From the IMG/VR virus record IMGVR_UViG_3300044613_003214, positions 1-20,185 of that record: a stretch of 20,185 nucleotides of DNA; one strand, written 5' to 3'. The notes under the pieces were generated by a model, which saw only the letters and a program-made list of their open reading frames with translations, ran no database searches and was not told the origin of the DNA. Of the stretch, positions 2,731 to 20,185 are shown piece after piece. Position numbers and translations under genes: made by a program. Each line of letters begins with the position of its first letter. Positions within the stretch are counted from its first letter, which is position 1. Source of the stretch: a virus.

Positions 2731-5700
2731 ATGGACTTTAAACAACTTCGCCAAGACGTTACGGAATTAATTGATGCGGACGTAGATAGGGATAAAGTTG
2801 AAGCCTATATCCAACAAAACGGGTTTACCATACCTGAATTTAAATTAGCCAACGAAAACTACGGCACCTTTATGAGTGCTGTTAAACGGGGTGGTAAAAA
2901 CATTAGTTCTTTAGTCGGTGATTTTCTTCCCGCCATGGGGGCAGATTTACTTGAAAAAATTGCTCCAGATAGCTTTAAACCCCAAATTGAAGCTTTTAAA
3001 CAAAAACAGTTTGAAGAAGCAGCGGCTACACAAGAAGAGATTGCTAAAACGTTACCCGCTAAGTATGAGTCTTATGAAGATGTTGGCGGCCCATTAGAAG
3101 CTCTTGGGTATGCTAAAGAAGCGGTTGGTGAAGCTGTTACTTCTTTTCTTCCAGGTATAGTTACCGGAGGTATTGGTAGCGTTGTGTCTCGTGGCGCTGT
3201 TGCGGCGGCTGGACAAGCTGCATCTCAAGCGGCTAAAAATAGAGTACTTGCCTCGGCTCCCGCAGCTGCAATTGAAAGTGGTGCAGCAGAACAACTAGCG
3301 GCTAAAGCGGCAATTAGCGCAGCATCAAAAGCTATGACTAGTAAAGCTCTTCAATACGAAGCGGCAGGTGCTGTTTTAGGTTCTTCAGCACTGACCATAC
3401 CCGATGCATATTCAACCATCTATTCTGAAACAGGCAAAACGGAATTACTGCCAGCAATTGGAGGGGGTTTATTTAATGCTGGATTAGACGCAATAACCCC
3501 AATTAGTTTACTACGTGCGGCTAGAGGAAAAGGATTAACTAACCAAGATATTATTGGCGCTTGGTATATGAGGGGTATTAAAGGGGCCGCTAAAGGGGCA
3601 GTTACAGAAGGATTAACCGAGGGCTTCCAAGAAGTAACTAACGCAGCAGCAGTTAATTTTGTTGACGAAAACAAAGAAATATTTACCCCAGAAAATTTTG
3701 TACGTTTTATTGATTCTGGTATTCGTGGGGCGTTAGGTGGTGCAGCTGTAACCGGTGCTGCCGGTGCTGCATTTGGTAAAAGAGAAGCCGCGCCAAAAAC
3801 AGAAGAATCTACCCAATTTGTTCCGCCTCCAGGAGCTGTACCGGGCGGTCAAGGTGTAGGTTTGGGTGTTTCTCCAGCACCTTTTAGTCCTTTAACTGGT
3901 GAGCGTGACCTTGCTGGCATGGTTCCAAAAGGAGCTTATTACAAACCAACCGAAGAACTTGAGCCTATTATTGGCCCAGACGGAAAAGTTACCGGATATC
4001 GACCAGCAAAACAAGTACCCCCACGCCAAGAATTAGAAGGCGAGCAATTGGGGTTACCTATATCAGAACAAGGTGAACTACCGCTTACGCCTAGAGAGCA
4101 ACCAATTAAAAAGGGTGAATTGCGTAATATAGAGGGTGAACTAATTTATCCTGAAGAACTAAAAAACGTAAAAGGAGAGCCTTTAGCTCCCGATGCAGAT
4201 TTAGCAAAACCTATTGACGAGTATATAAGTGGCGTTGTAGAAAAAGCTAAAAAAGATACTAGCGCGTCTAAGTTGTTAAAAGCAAACAATGCAGCGACTG
4301 CAAAAATAGTTGCCGGAAGAATTCAAGCATTATTGCCTAGCCCAGAGGCAGACCCAACAGAAGCAATGGAACAACTATATGAGCAAGACAAGACTGGGAG
4401 ATATCCTGCGGGCACTAAGGCTCTTAGCGAAGCTCAAAGAGAACTCCTCCAAACAATCTACAGACGCCGGACTGGTAGGGATATTGAAGACACAATCAGA
4501 GACAGAGCGTTTGCAAAAGCCCAACAGGGAGAACTATTCCCAGAAGGAGACGTCGATGGAACCCAACAAGGTGCCGGTCAAGGTGAGCTTTTCCCCGGAA
4601 CAGCTGGAACTGATGTGGGCGTTACTGGCCAAGGACCCGGAGCGGGTGTACTCGGGCAACCTACCGGAGGAGCTGCTGGAACTCCAGGAGTGGGAGTGGG
4701 TGGTGGCGAGCTACCTCCTGCAGGAGGTGTTGGAGGAACTGGAACAAAGCCCAGTGCATTAACTCCAGAAGAAGCCTGGAACCGCCATAAGAATGATGAT
4801 CATCCTGCATTTACAGAACTAAGCCCTGAAGAACAGGCCGCTTGGTCAGACTTAACTGCTCGTGGTAGAGATACTGCACCAAACTTCCAAGACTTAGTTG
4901 AAGGTTATGTAACGCGCACAACTAAACAACCAGAAGAAATTAAAAAGATTTTTGCAGAAGAAACCAAAATAACTACAGCAGACATTGAAAGTGAACTTGC
5001 TGGTAAAGACTTTAAACAACTTTTAGATTACATGACAAAAAATGGGCCCCTGTCCATGCAAGAAGTTATGAAAGAAGTTGCTAAAAAAGTAGATTTAATG
5101 CGCAAGAAAGGTTTTGATTTTACGTTTACCCTTGTACAAACTCCCGGCGCTGCAAGAAGGGTTGGCTTGAGTTCAAGAGCTTCTGGACATGTATCTCCAG
5201 TTGGTAAAACTATGAACTTAGTTCTTGCTGGAAGAGGTTCTGGCCGGATACCTGGCAATACATTTGAAGTTGCAGCACATGAACTTTTGCATACTATTAC
5301 GATCCCATTAATTCGATATGGGTCTTTGCATCCTACTTCAAAAGAAGGAAAAATAGTTCAAGAATTAGAAGCACTAAGTGACCATATAAAAGCGGAACTT
5401 AAAAAACGTATAAAAAATGGCACAGCTACTTATTTTGAGCAATCCATTATTAACGGCACAAACGTGTTTGGTAAAAAGTTTATGGGCTCTACTATCCATA
5501 AAGCCGATGAAATGGTGTCATGGGGTATGACCAACAGTGAGTACCGTGGTGTTTTAGAAAGTATTCCCTACAAAGGCAAAACTGTTTTAGATGCTTTTGT
5601 AGAAGCTATTCGTAGATTAATTGGCCTGTCACCAAAAGCAGACACTGCTTTGTCAGAAATTATTAGGTTAAGCAACGAGCTGTTCCAAATGCAAGTGCCA

Positions 5701-8562
5701 GCAAACATACCGTTTTTTAGTGAACCAGTAACGTATGATGTTGAATTACCACTACCTCCAGTAACACCACCAGTGGGGCCTTCCGTAGTTCCAGCACCCG
5801 GACAGCCATATACACTGCCACAATTAACCAAAGTAAAACCCGCCCCAACCGTTAAACAATCGGTTATAGACACAGCTAAAAAAGTTACAGATGCCTATAA
5901 TGATAGTAGCTGGTGGACTAAATTTCGTATTGCTGCAGTTGACCCTACCGCCGGTTTAGCAAAAACATTAAGTTCGTTGCCTGTATTTCAAGACGGCAAG
6001 CTTCGTGGAGATATGCTAATTCGCGCGTTTAGCCAAGTTATTAACTTAATTAAGAATGGTATCCAATCGGGTATTCCAGTTATTAACGCAGATGGCACAG
6101 TAGTTATTCAACGTAATGCTAATAACCTTGCACGTTCCCAAGTTCTTGCAGATGAATTAGATAATAACTCAATTGTTAAAGGGTCTAAACTTAGTGGTCG
6201 TGGATATGTAGCGGAAATTGCTCGTATCTTGCGCGGTGATGAAATTATGAAGGTGGATGCTCATCGTAGATTTAAAGCGGGTATGGCATTCCAAGAAGCC
6301 GAAAGAAAAATGCAGCAAGCTAAACAGCTGCAAAAGCAAGGTCGTTCAATAACAGAAGTAACCAAATTAGTTAATGAAGCTAAGGCGCTGCGTAAACGCT
6401 ATCGTAAAGATTTAAATGCTAATCGTGAAAAGCAAGTAACTCAAGCACACCTTGACTGGGCTAACCAACAGTTAAAAGCAGTTCCACAAGTACAAGAAAT
6501 TCTTAACATTTGGGATGAAGTTAATCAAGGGTTAATTACGCTTTGGGAAGACTCTGGTTTACTAACTGAAGAGCAAGCTGCCTATTATCGCAGTATGAAG
6601 AACTATGTGCCTCTTTATGCGGCTAGAGAAGATTTACCTACCGCTGAACAAGAAGCATATACAGGTACTCGTACAGGAACTAAAACGGTTCGTGAGTTAG
6701 ACCATTTAGAAGGCACTGATTTACAGCGAAATATTTGGGAAAACCTTGATAAGCACTATGCCTCAATGACCGCCTCTGCCTTTCAAAACCAAACCCGTAA
6801 AGTTGCTGCAGAACAACTACTATATTTAAGAGCGGCTCGTTTAGCTAAAGACCCCGATGATAAAAATATTAACTTGCGCTATAGAGACCCAACCAACCCC
6901 GATGCCGACAAGCATGGCGTAGTGCATTTAATTTTAGATAACCCAAATGATCTGGCTGCGTTCCAAACAATGCACTATCCGTTAGGCGCCTTAATGAAGG
7001 GTATCTCTGCCACTACCCAGGTCCTACGCGGCACGGCTTTGATTAACCCCATGTACTGGATTAGACAGCTAATTCGTGATCCGATCCAGGCGTCACTTGT
7101 GGCTAATAGTGGAATTGTTACTCCATTCCATTCTGCTGCTGAATATTTACGGGTACTTGCTGGGCAATCTGAAGAAGCAAAGATTCTTGCGTCTCGTGGC
7201 GTAATTGGTCAGGTTGATAGCACGGTTGATTTACAAGACTTCTTAAAACAAGTTGGTACAGAAAAAGTATCCCCGTCTAAGCTAGATGAAATGATCCGTA
7301 AAGTAATGCGTATGCATGAAGCGTCGGACGCTGCAACCCGCGTTGCTCTATTTAAGAAAGCTAGAGACGAAGGCCTTGCTAAGGGCATGAGCGCAAAAGA
7401 AGCGGAAGACTATGGAGTGTTTAGAGCACGGGAATCCATTAACTTTGGTATACGTGGTAACTCCCAAACACTAAATACCCTACGCCACATGATACCGTTC
7501 TTCTCGGCAACTATTGTTAGCTTGGATACTTTGTACCGCGCAGCTACTGGTTATGGATTAAATCCAAAAGAAAAAGCAGAAGCCCAACGTATTTTTTATA
7601 GCCGTGCCTTAATGATGGCAGCCTTATCAACTGTTTATGCAATGATGTTGCAAGACGATGAGGACTACAAAAAACTACCGGATAACGTTAAAGACAATAA
7701 CTGGCTATTACCATCTCCTATAGGTGACGAGCGTTCTTTTATAAAGATTTCTATTCCGTACGAGGTTGGTTTCCTATTCAAAACATTGCCAGAAGCTTTT
7801 GTTCGTTATATGGCAGATACCAGCACAGGTAAAGAAACTTTGGCTTCAGTTGCTTTAGGTATTAAACGTAACCTACCGGGCGAAGGTATTTTAATTCCAC
7901 AGGCATTTAAACCCGCCTTAGAATCTGTTACCAACTACTCGTTTTTTACGGGGCGCCCAATTGAAGGTATGAGCGATAAAGGGTTGCCTGTAGAATATCG
8001 TGGCCCCCATGCTTCTGAGTTGGCAAAGACATTAAGTTCTTTTGGTCTAAACAAAATTGAGTTGTCCCCAGCAAAAATAGACGCTTTAATTCAAGGTTAC
8101 TTTGCTGAACTTGGTACATTCTCTACAGGACTAGCAAGCTCGGCTATTAACGCAGCTACTGGAAAAGAACCACCTGCTAAGAATTTAGAGCAGATGCCTT
8201 TCTTTAAGGCCTTCTTAACAAATCCAAATACCAGTAAAGCAGCTACAGATTATTACGAAATTTCAAACAACGCACAAGAAGCGGTCAATGCATTTAATCG
8301 TATGAAGAAGGAAGGCCGTATTGAAGAGGCTAAAGAGTTTGTATCTAAAGAAGAAAACAAAAAGCTCATGGCTGCTGCACCATCTTTACGTAAGATTCAA
8401 GATCAAATGTCAACAATTCGTACTCAAATAAATGTTATTGAAAGAAACGAAAAAATTGATCCTGAAACACGCCGGCAAAGAATCAATCAACTTATGACAA
8501 CGTATGACAAAGTTGCCCGTCAAGGATATAAAGTTCTAGAAGCTGCCGGAATCGAGCGATAA
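2731..8562 (+). CDS. Giant polyvalent virion/ejection protein with HELLH metallopeptidase motif and LPD38-like C-terminal region (1943 aa)
   Basis: A single open frame encodes 1943 residues; an AAGGA Shine-Dalgarno precedes the ATG. Residues ~130-350 are Ala/Gly-rich hydrophobic helices. Residues ~350-675 form a Pro/Gly-rich linker with four short QxxL[FP]-type motifs (439, 447, 599, 617). A zinc-metallopeptidase motif HELLH lies at 850-854, with E927 in a DEMVSW context as a possible third ligand. A charged helical region follows (~1180-1270), then MKNYVPLY (1289-1296) and NPMYWIRQLIRDP (1439-1451). A block at ~1587-1680, with a hydrophobic helix near 1626-1641, resembles the phage 'large polyvalent protein associated' domain LPD38. 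Such proteins enter the host with the DNA in podovirus-like phages, comparable to T7 gp16 (about 1.3 kaa), though here the transglycosylase is a separate gene. The metallopeptidase activity and domain borders are inferred from motifs only. Confidence 0.88.
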   Translation: MDFKQLRQDVTELIDADVDRDKVEAYIQQNGFTIPEFKLANENYGTFMSAVKRGGKNISSLVGDFLPAMGADLLEKIAPDSFKPQIEAFKQKQFEEAAATQEEIAKTLPAKYESYEDVGGPLEALGYAKEAVGEAVTSFLPGIVTGGIGSVVSRGAVAAAGQAASQAAKNRVLASAPAAAIESGAAEQLAAKAAISAASKAMTSKALQYEAAGAVLGSSALTIPDAYSTIYSETGKTELLPAIGGGLFNAGLDAITPISLLRAARGKGLTNQDIIGAWYMRGIKGAAKGAVTEGLTEGFQEVTNAAAVNFVDENKEIFTPENFVRFIDSGIRGALGGAAVTGAAGAAFGKREAAPKTEESTQFVPPPGAVPGGQGVGLGVSPAPFSPLTGERDLAGMVPKGAYYKPTEELEPIIGPDGKVTGYRPAKQVPPRQELEGEQLGLPISEQGELPLTPREQPIKKGELRNIEGELIYPEELKNVKGEPLAPDADLAKPIDEYISGVVEKAKKDTSASKLLKANNAATAKIVAGRIQALLPSPEADPTEAMEQLYEQDKTGRYPAGTKALSEAQRELLQTIYRRRTGRDIEDTIRDRAFAKAQQGELFPEGDVDGTQQGAGQGELFPGTAGTDVGVTGQGPGAGVLGQPTGGAAGTPGVGVGGGELPPAGGVGGTGTKPSALTPEEAWNRHKNDDHPAFTELSPEEQAAWSDLTARGRDTAPNFQDLVEGYVTRTTKQPEEIKKIFAEETKITTADIESELAGKDFKQLLDYMTKNGPLSMQEVMKEVAKKVDLMRKKGFDFTFTLVQTPGAARRVGLSSRASGHVSPVGKTMNLVLAGRGSGRIPGNTFEVAAHELLHTITIPLIRYGSLHPTSKEGKIVQELEALSDHIKAELKKRIKNGTATYFEQSIINGTNVFGKKFMGSTIHKADEMVSWGMTNSEYRGVLESIPYKGKTVLDAFVEAIRRLIGLSPKADTALSEIIRLSNELFQMQVPANIPFFSEPVTYDVELPLPPVTPPVGPSVVPAPGQPYTLPQLTKVKPAPTVKQSVIDTAKKVTDAYNDSSWWTKFRIAAVDPTAGLAKTLSSLPVFQDGKLRGDMLIRAFSQVINLIKNGIQSGIPVINADGTVVIQRNANNLARSQVLADELDNNSIVKGSKLSGRGYVAEIARILRGDEIMKVDAHRRFKAGMAFQEAERKMQQAKQLQKQGRSITEVTKLVNEAKALRKRYRKDLNANREKQVTQAHLDWANQQLKAVPQVQEILNIWDEVNQGLITLWEDSGLLTEEQAAYYRSMKNYVPLYAAREDLPTAEQEAYTGTRTGTKTVRELDHLEGTDLQRNIWENLDKHYASMTASAFQNQTRKVAAEQLLYLRAARLAKDPDDKNINLRYRDPTNPDADKHGVVHLILDNPNDLAAFQTMHYPLGALMKGISATTQVLRGTALINPMYWIRQLIRDPIQASLVANSGIVTPFHSAAEYLRVLAGQSEEAKILASRGVIGQVDSTVDLQDFLKQVGTEKVSPSKLDEMIRKVMRMHEASDAATRVALFKKARDEGLAKGMSAKEAEDYGVFRARESINFGIRGNSQTLNTLRHMIPFFSATIVSLDTLYRAATGYGLNPKEKAEAQRIFYSRALMMAALSTVYAMMLQDDEDYKKLPDNVKDNNWLLPSPIGDERSFIKISIPYEVGFLFKTLPEAFVRYMADTSTGKETLASVALGIKRNLPGEGILIPQAFKPALESVTNYSFFTGRPIEGMSDKGLPVEYRGPHASELAKTLSSFGLNKIELSPAKIDALIQGYFAELGTFSTGLASSAINAATGKEPPAKNLEQMPFFKAFLTNPNTSKAATDYYEISNNAQEAVNAFNRMKKEGRIEEAKEFVSKEENKKLMAAAPSLRKIQDQMSTIRTQINVIERNEKIDPETRRQRINQLMTTYDKVARQGYKVLEAAGIER

Positions 8563-17919: not shown

Positions 17920-18693
17920 TCAACCCCTTGGTAGTTGACCGCTAAAGTTGTAAGTCCCGCTATGGGTTAGATTCGCCCAAGGTGCGGCATAGACTTTGAA
18001 GCCAGCTTTGCGAGCAATCTTACAGAAGTGGTAGTCTTCTGAGAGCAATCGGTTAGATTCTTCATCAATGCTGGTATCAAAGAACTCGTGAATAATCTTC
18101 TTAACTGGGTTCTTATCTACAATCAAGATCATGTCGTTGGTATAAGTCGGCACTAATGGTTTTAAAGTATCAAAAACATTACGCTTAATCAGCATGAATC
18201 CTGTACCACCGTTATCAATCTCCATGGGTTCGTTGATGTTGCCTACTGTTTCGTGTACACCGCCTACTAAGTTAACCACAAACGATCCTGTGTAATTACC
18301 CAAGTCTTTGTAGTCCACACCTTGCTTGACCGCATCGTGTACTAACTTCCAGTTAATTTCTTTTTTGGGATATAGACCGCAAATAATATCTTTGTCAGCT
18401 TTGACCATACGCACAATGTCAGCAGGCTTAAAGCTAATGTCTGCATCAATAAACATCAAATGTGTTGCGTCTGACTGCATGAAATCATAGGCCATGCCAT
18501 TACGAGCACGAGTAATCAAAGACTCATTCATCATGTACGAGTAATACATTTGAATTTGATGGGGCATAAACGTTTGCACACACTCTAAGATACCCATGGT
18601 GTAACCGCCGGTGCATAACCCACCATACATTGGTGTAGCTACAAATAATTTAGCAGGCTTCTTTGGTTCTATTGCTTCTACATTTTCTAACAT
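17920..18693 (-). CDS. Glycosyltransferase-like protein (GT-A fold type, 257 aa)
   Basis: The sequence has an N-terminal beta-strand LFVATPMYGG (16-25), a DxD-type metal/nucleotide-sugar motif in MFIDADISF (D83, D85), a DNGGTGFMLIKR segment (160-171) and SEDYHFCKIARKAGFKVY (218-235) with E219-D220 as a possible catalytic acid pair, then THSG (243-246). This order fits family-2-like GT-A glycosyltransferases of phages. The acceptor could be host or virion glycan, or modified DNA bases; the sequence does not tell. No membrane segment is seen. A strong AAGGAG lies seven bases before the ATG, and the preceding gene ends 3 nt upstream. Its place between surface- and modification-type genes and the polymerase suggests an early accessory function. 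Confidence 0.8.
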   Translation of the reverse strand: MLENVEAIEPKKPAKLFVATPMYGGLCTGGYTMGILECVQTFMPHQIQMYYSYMMNESLITRARNGMAYDFMQSDATHLMFIDADISFKPADIVRMVKADKDIICGLYPKKEINWKLVHDAVKQGVDYKDLGNYTGSFVVNLVGGVHETVGNINEPMEIDNGGTGFMLIKRNVFDTLKPLVPTYTNDMILIVDKNPVKKIIHEFFDTSIDEESNRLLSEDYHFCKIARKAGFKVYAAPWANLTHSGTYNFSGQLPRG

Positions 18694-19514: not shown

Positions 19515-19684
19515 TTCTGAATCCTATTCCATAGTTCAGACAACGGCATCCCTTTGATCTCTCTCCAGCCAACGTATACACAGGCGTACATAATAAACAA
19601 GAAGAAACTAAACACCACCGCAAATATCAATACTGCAAAGGTGGCCAAAAACAAAGCAAACATATTCAGTATTGTGACAATCAT
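19511..19684 (-). CDS. Small hydrophobic membrane protein (57 aa)
   Basis: Translating the - strand from the ATG at 19684 to the TGA at 19513-19511 gives 57 residues. Residues 2-40 are almost wholly hydrophobic and aromatic with no charged residue (for example FALFLATFAVLIFAVV at 9-24), and the tail REIKGMPLSELWNRIQK is mixed and polar. This predicts one long or two short membrane helices with a positively charged C-terminus, probably cytoplasmic. AAGGA lies six bases before the ATG, and both ends overlap neighbouring genes as ATGA, which strongly argues for a real gene. It could be a superinfection-exclusion, lysis-related or membrane anchor protein; nothing in the sequence decides. Confidence 0.78.
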   Translation of the reverse strand: MIVTILNMFALFLATFAVLIFAVVFSFFLFIMYACVYVGWREIKGMPLSELWNRIQK

Positions 19685-20185
19685 TTGTTCCTTATGGCTA
19701 AATTGTTCTGTCCTAGCTGTTGTATTTTGTAGCCGTGACCTTCTAGGTATTCAAGCAATGCTTTACGTTTAGGTTCAAACCATGGCTTCCATGTCCATGC
19801 TTCAAAGATAATTGGTGGGTAGTTGTTTGCCTTGATGGTTTTGATACCACCCTTAATTACTTCTAGTTCGTGACCTTCTACGTCAATTTTAATTAAGCGT
19901 ACGTTTTTGTGTGCACCTGAGTCCAAGGTAAATACTACTAATGGTTCTTTGATACCCTCAGTTTTACATTCGTAATCATTATCACGAACTTCTTTATCCA
20001 TACTAAACGCACCAATGTTGCCTTCATTAGCGTAGTCAGGCATGGTAAGTACCATCCGCTCTTCTTTATCAGACAGCCCAAAGTTATGGCAATGGACATT
20101 ATCTAATCCATTAACAAACGTATTGGCGCATAATTGGTAATATATTATCCGTTGTGGTTCAAAGGCATGATAGGTATGCTTTGAT
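19681..20185 (-). CDS. FkbM-family SAM-dependent methyltransferase, 5' end missing
   Basis: The frame is open to the right edge, so the start is outside; 167 residues are visible. Before the internal ATG at 20055 the sequence continues with YHAFEPQRIIYYQL and NGLDNVHCHNFGLSD, which match the FkbM pattern, so 20055 is not the true start. The hallmark LIKIDVEGHELEVIKGG (visible residues ~97-113) contains the acidic DVEG segment, and IIFEAW follows. FkbM enzymes O-methylate sugars or other small molecules. Next to a glycosyltransferase-like gene, methylation of a glycan is a fair guess. The SAM-binding motif I is beyond the window. The stop overlaps the start of the membrane protein gene (ATGA). 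Confidence 0.9.
   Translation of the reverse strand, partial: SKHTYHAFEPQRIIYYQLCANTFVNGLDNVHCHNFGLSDKEERMVLTMPDYANEGNIGAFSMDKEVRDNDYECKTEGIKEPLVVFTLDSGAHKNVRLIKIDVEGHELEVIKGGIKTIKANNYPPIIFEAWTWKPWFEPKRKALLEYLEGHGYKIQQLGQNNLAIRNK

Follow-up and report, generated by a model that had tools for sequence, protein, structure and literature searches.

The roles of large phage ejection proteins beyond channel formation are little known. Metallopeptidase (MPTase) and LPD domains have already been described in injected 'polyvalent' proteins, whose MPTases have an N-terminal helix, a three-stranded sheet and two C-terminal helices (Iyer et al., 2017, PMC5512222), and a zincin has been described for the N4-like virion RNA polymerases (vRNAPs) (PMC5512222, PMC8472413, PMC12633501). 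Many records name gp37, the internal virion protein of phiKMV-like phages, 'internal virion protein with endolysin domain' or 'peptidoglycan lytic exotransglycosylase', and the PhiM1 ejectosome paper assigned residues 268–528 of the tetrameric ejection protein (TEP) as 'endolysin/exotransglycosidase-like' (PMC11440229).

We analysed a 20,185-nucleotide stretch of viral DNA (the window; IMG/VR record IMGVR_UViG_3300044613_003214) that encodes a 1943-residue protein with features of these systems. The explanation we favor, with a probability of roughly 0.6, is that this is the third ejection protein of a podovirus, at the position of T7 gp16, and that its zincin acts as a protease once ejected, on a host protein or on the ejected proteins themselves.

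The gene lies third in a cassette on the plus strand. The first gene (48–818) encodes a gp14-like small ejection protein of 256 aa (PHROG 4287 'DNA ejection protein', E = 5.7e-8). The second (828–2720) encodes a 630-aa protein at the gp15 position that matches PHROG transglycosylase/endolysin families and carries a lytic transglycosylase (SLT) domain at residues 208–305 (about 1449–1742; Pfam PF01464, E = 1.6e-20). The large protein follows at 2731–8562, from an ATG start, and gave no SLT match in Pfam; the sequence-only reading had likewise put the transglycosylase on a separate upstream protein. Judged by gene order and homology, this is a T7-like podovirus ejection cassette with the 1943-aa protein at the gp16 position. 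In Pelagibacter phage Lederberg, the order is tail tubular A, tail tubular B, acetyltransferase, gp14-like protein, gp15-position protein, LPD38 protein and tail fibre; in a relative from our set (L016), it is acetyltransferase, gp14-position protein, SLT protein and LPD38 protein. From the cassette order in the window, Lederberg and L016, we infer a virion location on good grounds, and the protein is probably injected into the bacterium along with the DNA. The gp15-position protein (499 aa) of two other relatives, L019 (1489–2988) and L020 (5486–6985), has no transglycosylase match, unlike that of the window and L016; their cell-wall enzyme either sits elsewhere or is absent from the stretch. 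Downstream of the 1943-aa gene in the window are replication genes on the opposite strand, beside which we noted an FkbM-type methyltransferase fragment (19681–20055, minus strand) and a weakly glycosyltransferase-like (Anp1) protein (17920–18693, minus strand).

Full-length IMG/VR relatives of the large protein share 52–62% identity with it in their best segments, and L016 is 55% identical over the entire alignment. Residues 1–350 (2731–3780) form an Ala/Gly-rich region that is conserved in L016, with Ala plus Gly reaching about 30–38% across residues 101–400. The Ala/Gly-rich hydrophobic helices of the earlier description hold up in part: the composition is as stated, but the mean Kyte-Doolittle score exceeds 1.4 at one weak peak only (residues 135–153). 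Residues 351–749 (3781–4977) are mostly a Pro/Gly-rich linker that varies in the pairwise alignment with L016. The zincin-like domain occupies residues 750–990 (4978–5700) and is followed by a Pro-rich linker at 991–1048 (5701–5874). The remainder, residues 1049–1943 (5875–8559), is a largely helical backbone common to many phages, as seen in an alignment of 24 sequences (A5). Pfam recognizes one domain in the whole protein, LPD38 (PF18857, E = 2.7e-37), at residues 1643–1824 (7657–8202), and PHROG 9854 covers the conserved block 1423–1937 (E = 1.7e-31). LPD38 had been predicted at 1400–1750; it is present, but slightly more C-terminal.

The single HExxH motif of the protein is HELLH at residues 850–854 (5278–5292), in the one open frame, as the sequence-only reading had it. 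Because 1.6% of composition-shuffled copies of the protein also contain an HExxH, the motif by itself is suggestive and no proof. Conservation is more telling. Across 36 distinct homologous domains in which the site could be aligned, H850, E851, H854 and E927 never vary and T857 is kept in 35, and all five residues are invariant in an alignment of 12 domains. E927 (5509–5511), the second residue of DEMVSWGMTN, lies on the next conserved helix, and the identity of His, Glu, His and Glu in 36/36 domains makes it the right candidate for the third zinc ligand, which it had been proposed to be. The two histidines would supply the other ligands and E851 the general base.

The same residues bear on whether the fold is a structural remnant that serves in packing or channel assembly while its active site is idle. 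The N4 region with this domain is needed for encapsidation (PMC5512222), as such a remnant might be. A scaffold, however, would not need the invariant His, Glu, His and Glu ligand, which persist in domains with as little as about 20% identity to that of the window. We consider an idle site unlikely; the invariance of catalytic residues across such divergent domains argues that the enzyme is in use.

In an AlphaFold2 model of residues 745–1015, built from 13 aligned sequences, the mean pLDDT was 78 and the pTM 0.76, with most core blocks at about 88–97. In fragment numbering, the model has a helix at 30–48, strands at 52–58, 75–80 and 83–89, and helices at 101–122 and 181–190, a predicted topology that agrees with that of the polyvalent MPTases (PMC5512222). 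HELLH lies on helix 101–122 and E927 (E183 of the fragment) on helix 181–190, so that the model has the zincin arrangement anticipated from sequence, with the motif on the active helix and the glutamate on a later one. Among predicted viral structures (BFVD), the best match was gp37 of the phiKMV-like phage Ab05 (TM 0.76, rmsd 3.0, E = 4e-11). Below it ranked further internal virion proteins, a virion RNA polymerase and ART-PolyVal proteins; matches to SprT-like proteases were weak. The BFVD matches include proteins of crAss-like phages (cr116_1, cr127_1, cr8_1 and Cellulophaga phi14:2), a hint from modeling that the domain may also occur in crAss-like virion proteins. Foldseek matched the zincin model to no PDB structure at E ≤ 0.001; zinc metalloproteases were among the top-ranked entries, at low TM-scores.

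HExxH motifs also occur in radical-SAM-linked enzymes, as the N4 vRNAP paper points out (PMC12633501), and the domain might then perform another chemistry, for example as an alpha-ketoglutarate HExxH oxygenase. This seems very improbable to us, as the third-ligand Glu is conserved on the following helix and the weak fold neighbours of the model are zinc metallopeptidases (lethal factor, ZMPSTE24 and SprT-like). Taken together, homology and the model support the assignment of residues 750–990 as a zincin-type metallopeptidase domain carrying three predicted zinc ligands. Neither of the two outcomes named beforehand as counting against the sequence-only reading turned up: homologues conserve the HExxH, and the topology of the predicted fold is that of a zincin.

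Homologues of the domain occur in ejected proteins. In a tblastn search of phage records with residues 745–1020, phiKMV-like internal virion proteins (gp37) matched with E down to 2e-14, and N4-like vRNAPs and a DarB-like protein of Serratia phage Parlo matched with weaker scores. With phmmer, the domain matched 9sfn, an 'internal virion protein', among PDB sequences (E = 6.8e-15), and PHROG 2206, the N4 vRNAP family, matched residues 775–990 (E = 9.6e-10). A profile of 12 homologous domains, searched against PDB sequences, found 9sfn (2.5e-67), N4 vRNAP structures (9pnr; about 3e-36), 23sg gp10 (3.7e-15) and the PhiM1 TEP (8vb2; 8.7e-14), and matched none of the T7 gp16 entries. The PDB sequence search with the whole 1943-aa protein did not find relatives, and a single-sequence zincin scan of viral contigs gave no match. 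By these profile and pairwise comparisons, three ejected proteins of solved structure (9sfn, 9pnr and 8vb2) contain a region homologous to the domain. In a tree of the 36 domains, the window sequence adjoins phiKMV gp37 with moderate support (84/87), and the tree requires several moves between backbones, which we take as a hint of domain exchange. Two further cases deserve mention in their own right. Of the two HExxH motifs in the LPD38 protein of Synechococcus phage MinM2 (L012:1833-10244), which carries the annotation 'RelA/SpoT', one belongs to the window's zincin clade. In Pectobacterium phage Peat1 (KR604693.1 32134-33061), the zincin region of the TEP falls into two annotated genes separated by extra DNA; the cause may be an insertion, a frameshift or a sequencing error.

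The names given to these homologues would instead make the domain a peptidoglycan-degrading enzyme, an endolysin or exotransglycosylase, as in the database names of gp37 and the PhiM1 TEP assignment (PMC11440229). The zincin profile, however, covers residues 305–514 of the PhiM1 TEP, within the labelled region, with HEAAH at 385 and the Glu in THEFISQLF, and both HExxH and Glu are conserved in the zincin of the PhiM1 TEP (L069:8999-9781) and of phikF77 gp37 (L002:4974-5786). Pfam found no transglycosylase family in either protein. The profile behind the label, PHROG 342, has its transglycosylase part at about positions 9–142, which the window's SLT protein matches; gp37 and the PhiM1 TEP begin to align to this profile at positions 169 and 192, and therefore lack that part. 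On these three counts we rejected an endolysin function for the zincin domain, to which we would give very long odds, and the 'endolysin/exotransglycosylase' label on the phiKMV and PhiM1 proteins looks likely to be wrong. In the openly accessible literature, with the publication on 9sfn excluded, we found no description of a zincin in phiKMV/PhiM1-type proteins, and priority for this observation is uncertain.

No kinship emerged between this backbone and those of the phiKMV TEP and the N4 vRNAP. A search of IMG/VR contigs with a C-terminal alignment yielded 48 loci. No relative was found with the LPD38 alignment in bacterial genomes or with the LPD38 profile in PDB sequences, and kinship with the C-terminal region of the phiKMV TEP went undetected when backbone alignments were compared by hhalign (probability 0.1). 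Neither was the backbone significantly similar to the N4 C2 region. The model of residues 1049–1943 was of low confidence (pLDDT 63.5, pTM 0.39), and a PDB fold search with it gave no significant match. Because backbone kinship was undetected, what supports a role as ejection protein is gene order together with the zincin that these proteins share; these two lines agree with the earlier placement of the product among large podovirus ejection proteins.

This backbone carries swappable domains. Many full-length members have an HExxH domain ahead of it, the clades differing. The window's zincin type is found on L016, L019–L021, L023–L025, L028, L042, L053, L056, L057, L060 and L061, whereas L017, L027, L030, L035–L037 and L039 carry on the same LPD38 backbone a HESIHAL...EEAIAEAF type that is only weakly related. 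ART-PolyVal and DUF7178 are added in some relatives, including members with the HESIHAL...EEAIAEAF type. One 2321-aa protein (L042:2580-9542) fuses Phage_lysozyme2, zincin and LPD38. The large proteins of L019 and L025 share 94% identity to either side of the zincin-backbone junction, where L025 has a complete ART-PolyVal domain (980–1146, E = 3.1e-25) that is absent from L019. As read from the two sequences, the difference is a precise single-domain insertion that marks a cargo slot beside the zincin. The window has only the Pro-rich linker 991–1048 at this position.

The slot raises the self-target half of our explanation, which can be taken separately: the zincin would cut the ejected polypeptide at proline-rich linkers and free N-terminal or cargo modules, such as the ART of relatives, from the backbone. 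The domain is flanked by Pro-rich linkers, the ART of L025 is inserted exactly between zincin and backbone, and Iyer et al. (2017, PMC5512222), with reference to P1 DdrB, proposed that polyvalent MPTases process their own polypeptides. Release of cargo would thus explain the arrangement in L025. Yet the phiKMV and PhiM1 TEPs have the same domain and no recognised cargo domain, and a target outside the cargo, among host envelope or channel proteins, would explain its general conservation. The N4 vRNAP is, moreover, packaged uncut (PMC5512222). Self-processing as the whole account is therefore possible and, in our estimate, doubtful. The N4 vRNAP and the PhiM1 TEP, whose domain is resolved within a contiguous hub (PMC11440229), also make cutting before packaging unlikely and favor action after ejection.

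How, then, should the protein be classed? It has the features of polyvalent proteins (PMC5512222): by sequence, it is large and multidomain, combines a zincin MPTase with LPD38, is encoded among virion genes, and has relatives that add ART-PolyVal and DUF7178. Unlike those proteins, it is encoded in third place in a T7-type gp14/gp15/gp16 cassette, and its zincin is of the N4/phiKMV type, whereas other members with the same backbone carry the HESIHAL...EEAIAEAF type. With the phiKMV-group gp37 and PhiM1 TEP (9sfn, 8vb2), it shares a homologous zincin, the same catalytic residues and a preceding protein that bears a lysozyme-like domain, and it may work like a TEP. It is, however, about 600 aa longer, and since homology of the C-terminal backbone was tested and not found, we do not class it as a phiKMV-type TEP. 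The C1 domain of the N4-like vRNAP gp50 (9pnr) is a homologous zincin in an ejected protein too, but Pfam found no RNA polymerase family in the window protein and the PHROG 2206 match is confined to the zincin; with the polymerase absent, we do not class it as an N4 vRNAP. T7 gp16 resembles it in cassette position and large size, but has its own N-terminal transglycosylase on the same protein. In the window this enzyme is on the preceding protein, and so the 1943-aa protein is not classed as a T7 gp16.

In the mechanism we favor, post-ejection cleavage, the protein would start with an Ala/Gly-rich N-terminal region, continue through linkers into a gluzincin-type domain and a proline-rich cargo slot, and end in the helical LPD38 backbone. 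It would be packaged and would exit the virion together with the DNA or before it, and the transglycosylase of the preceding protein would open the peptidoglycan. The zincin, presumed to bind zinc and to act as a protease, would then cut either a host protein of the envelope or cytoplasm or a site within the ejected proteins; we regard a host target and a self target as about equally likely.

Beyond the window, we think it slightly better than an even bet that an active zinc-protease clade is a mobile part of podovirus ejection machines and that the 'endolysin/exotransglycosylase' domain of PhiM1 and of the databases is this same protease. Such a clade would span the ejection proteins of the phiKMV/KP34/PhiM1 type, the N4 vRNAPs and the LPD38 proteins, whose backbones show no detectable kinship. 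The L019/L025 pair indicates that effector domains can slot in next to the protease domain, and the structures 9sfn, 8vb2 and 9pnr already point to the residues for loss-of-function mutation. If the domain is an active protease, infection by such well-studied phages as phiKMV, KP34 and N4 begins with the injection of a protease, and a functional label in many phage genomes would be corrected. These phages would then inject, with that ejection protein, a protease and no second cell-wall enzyme.
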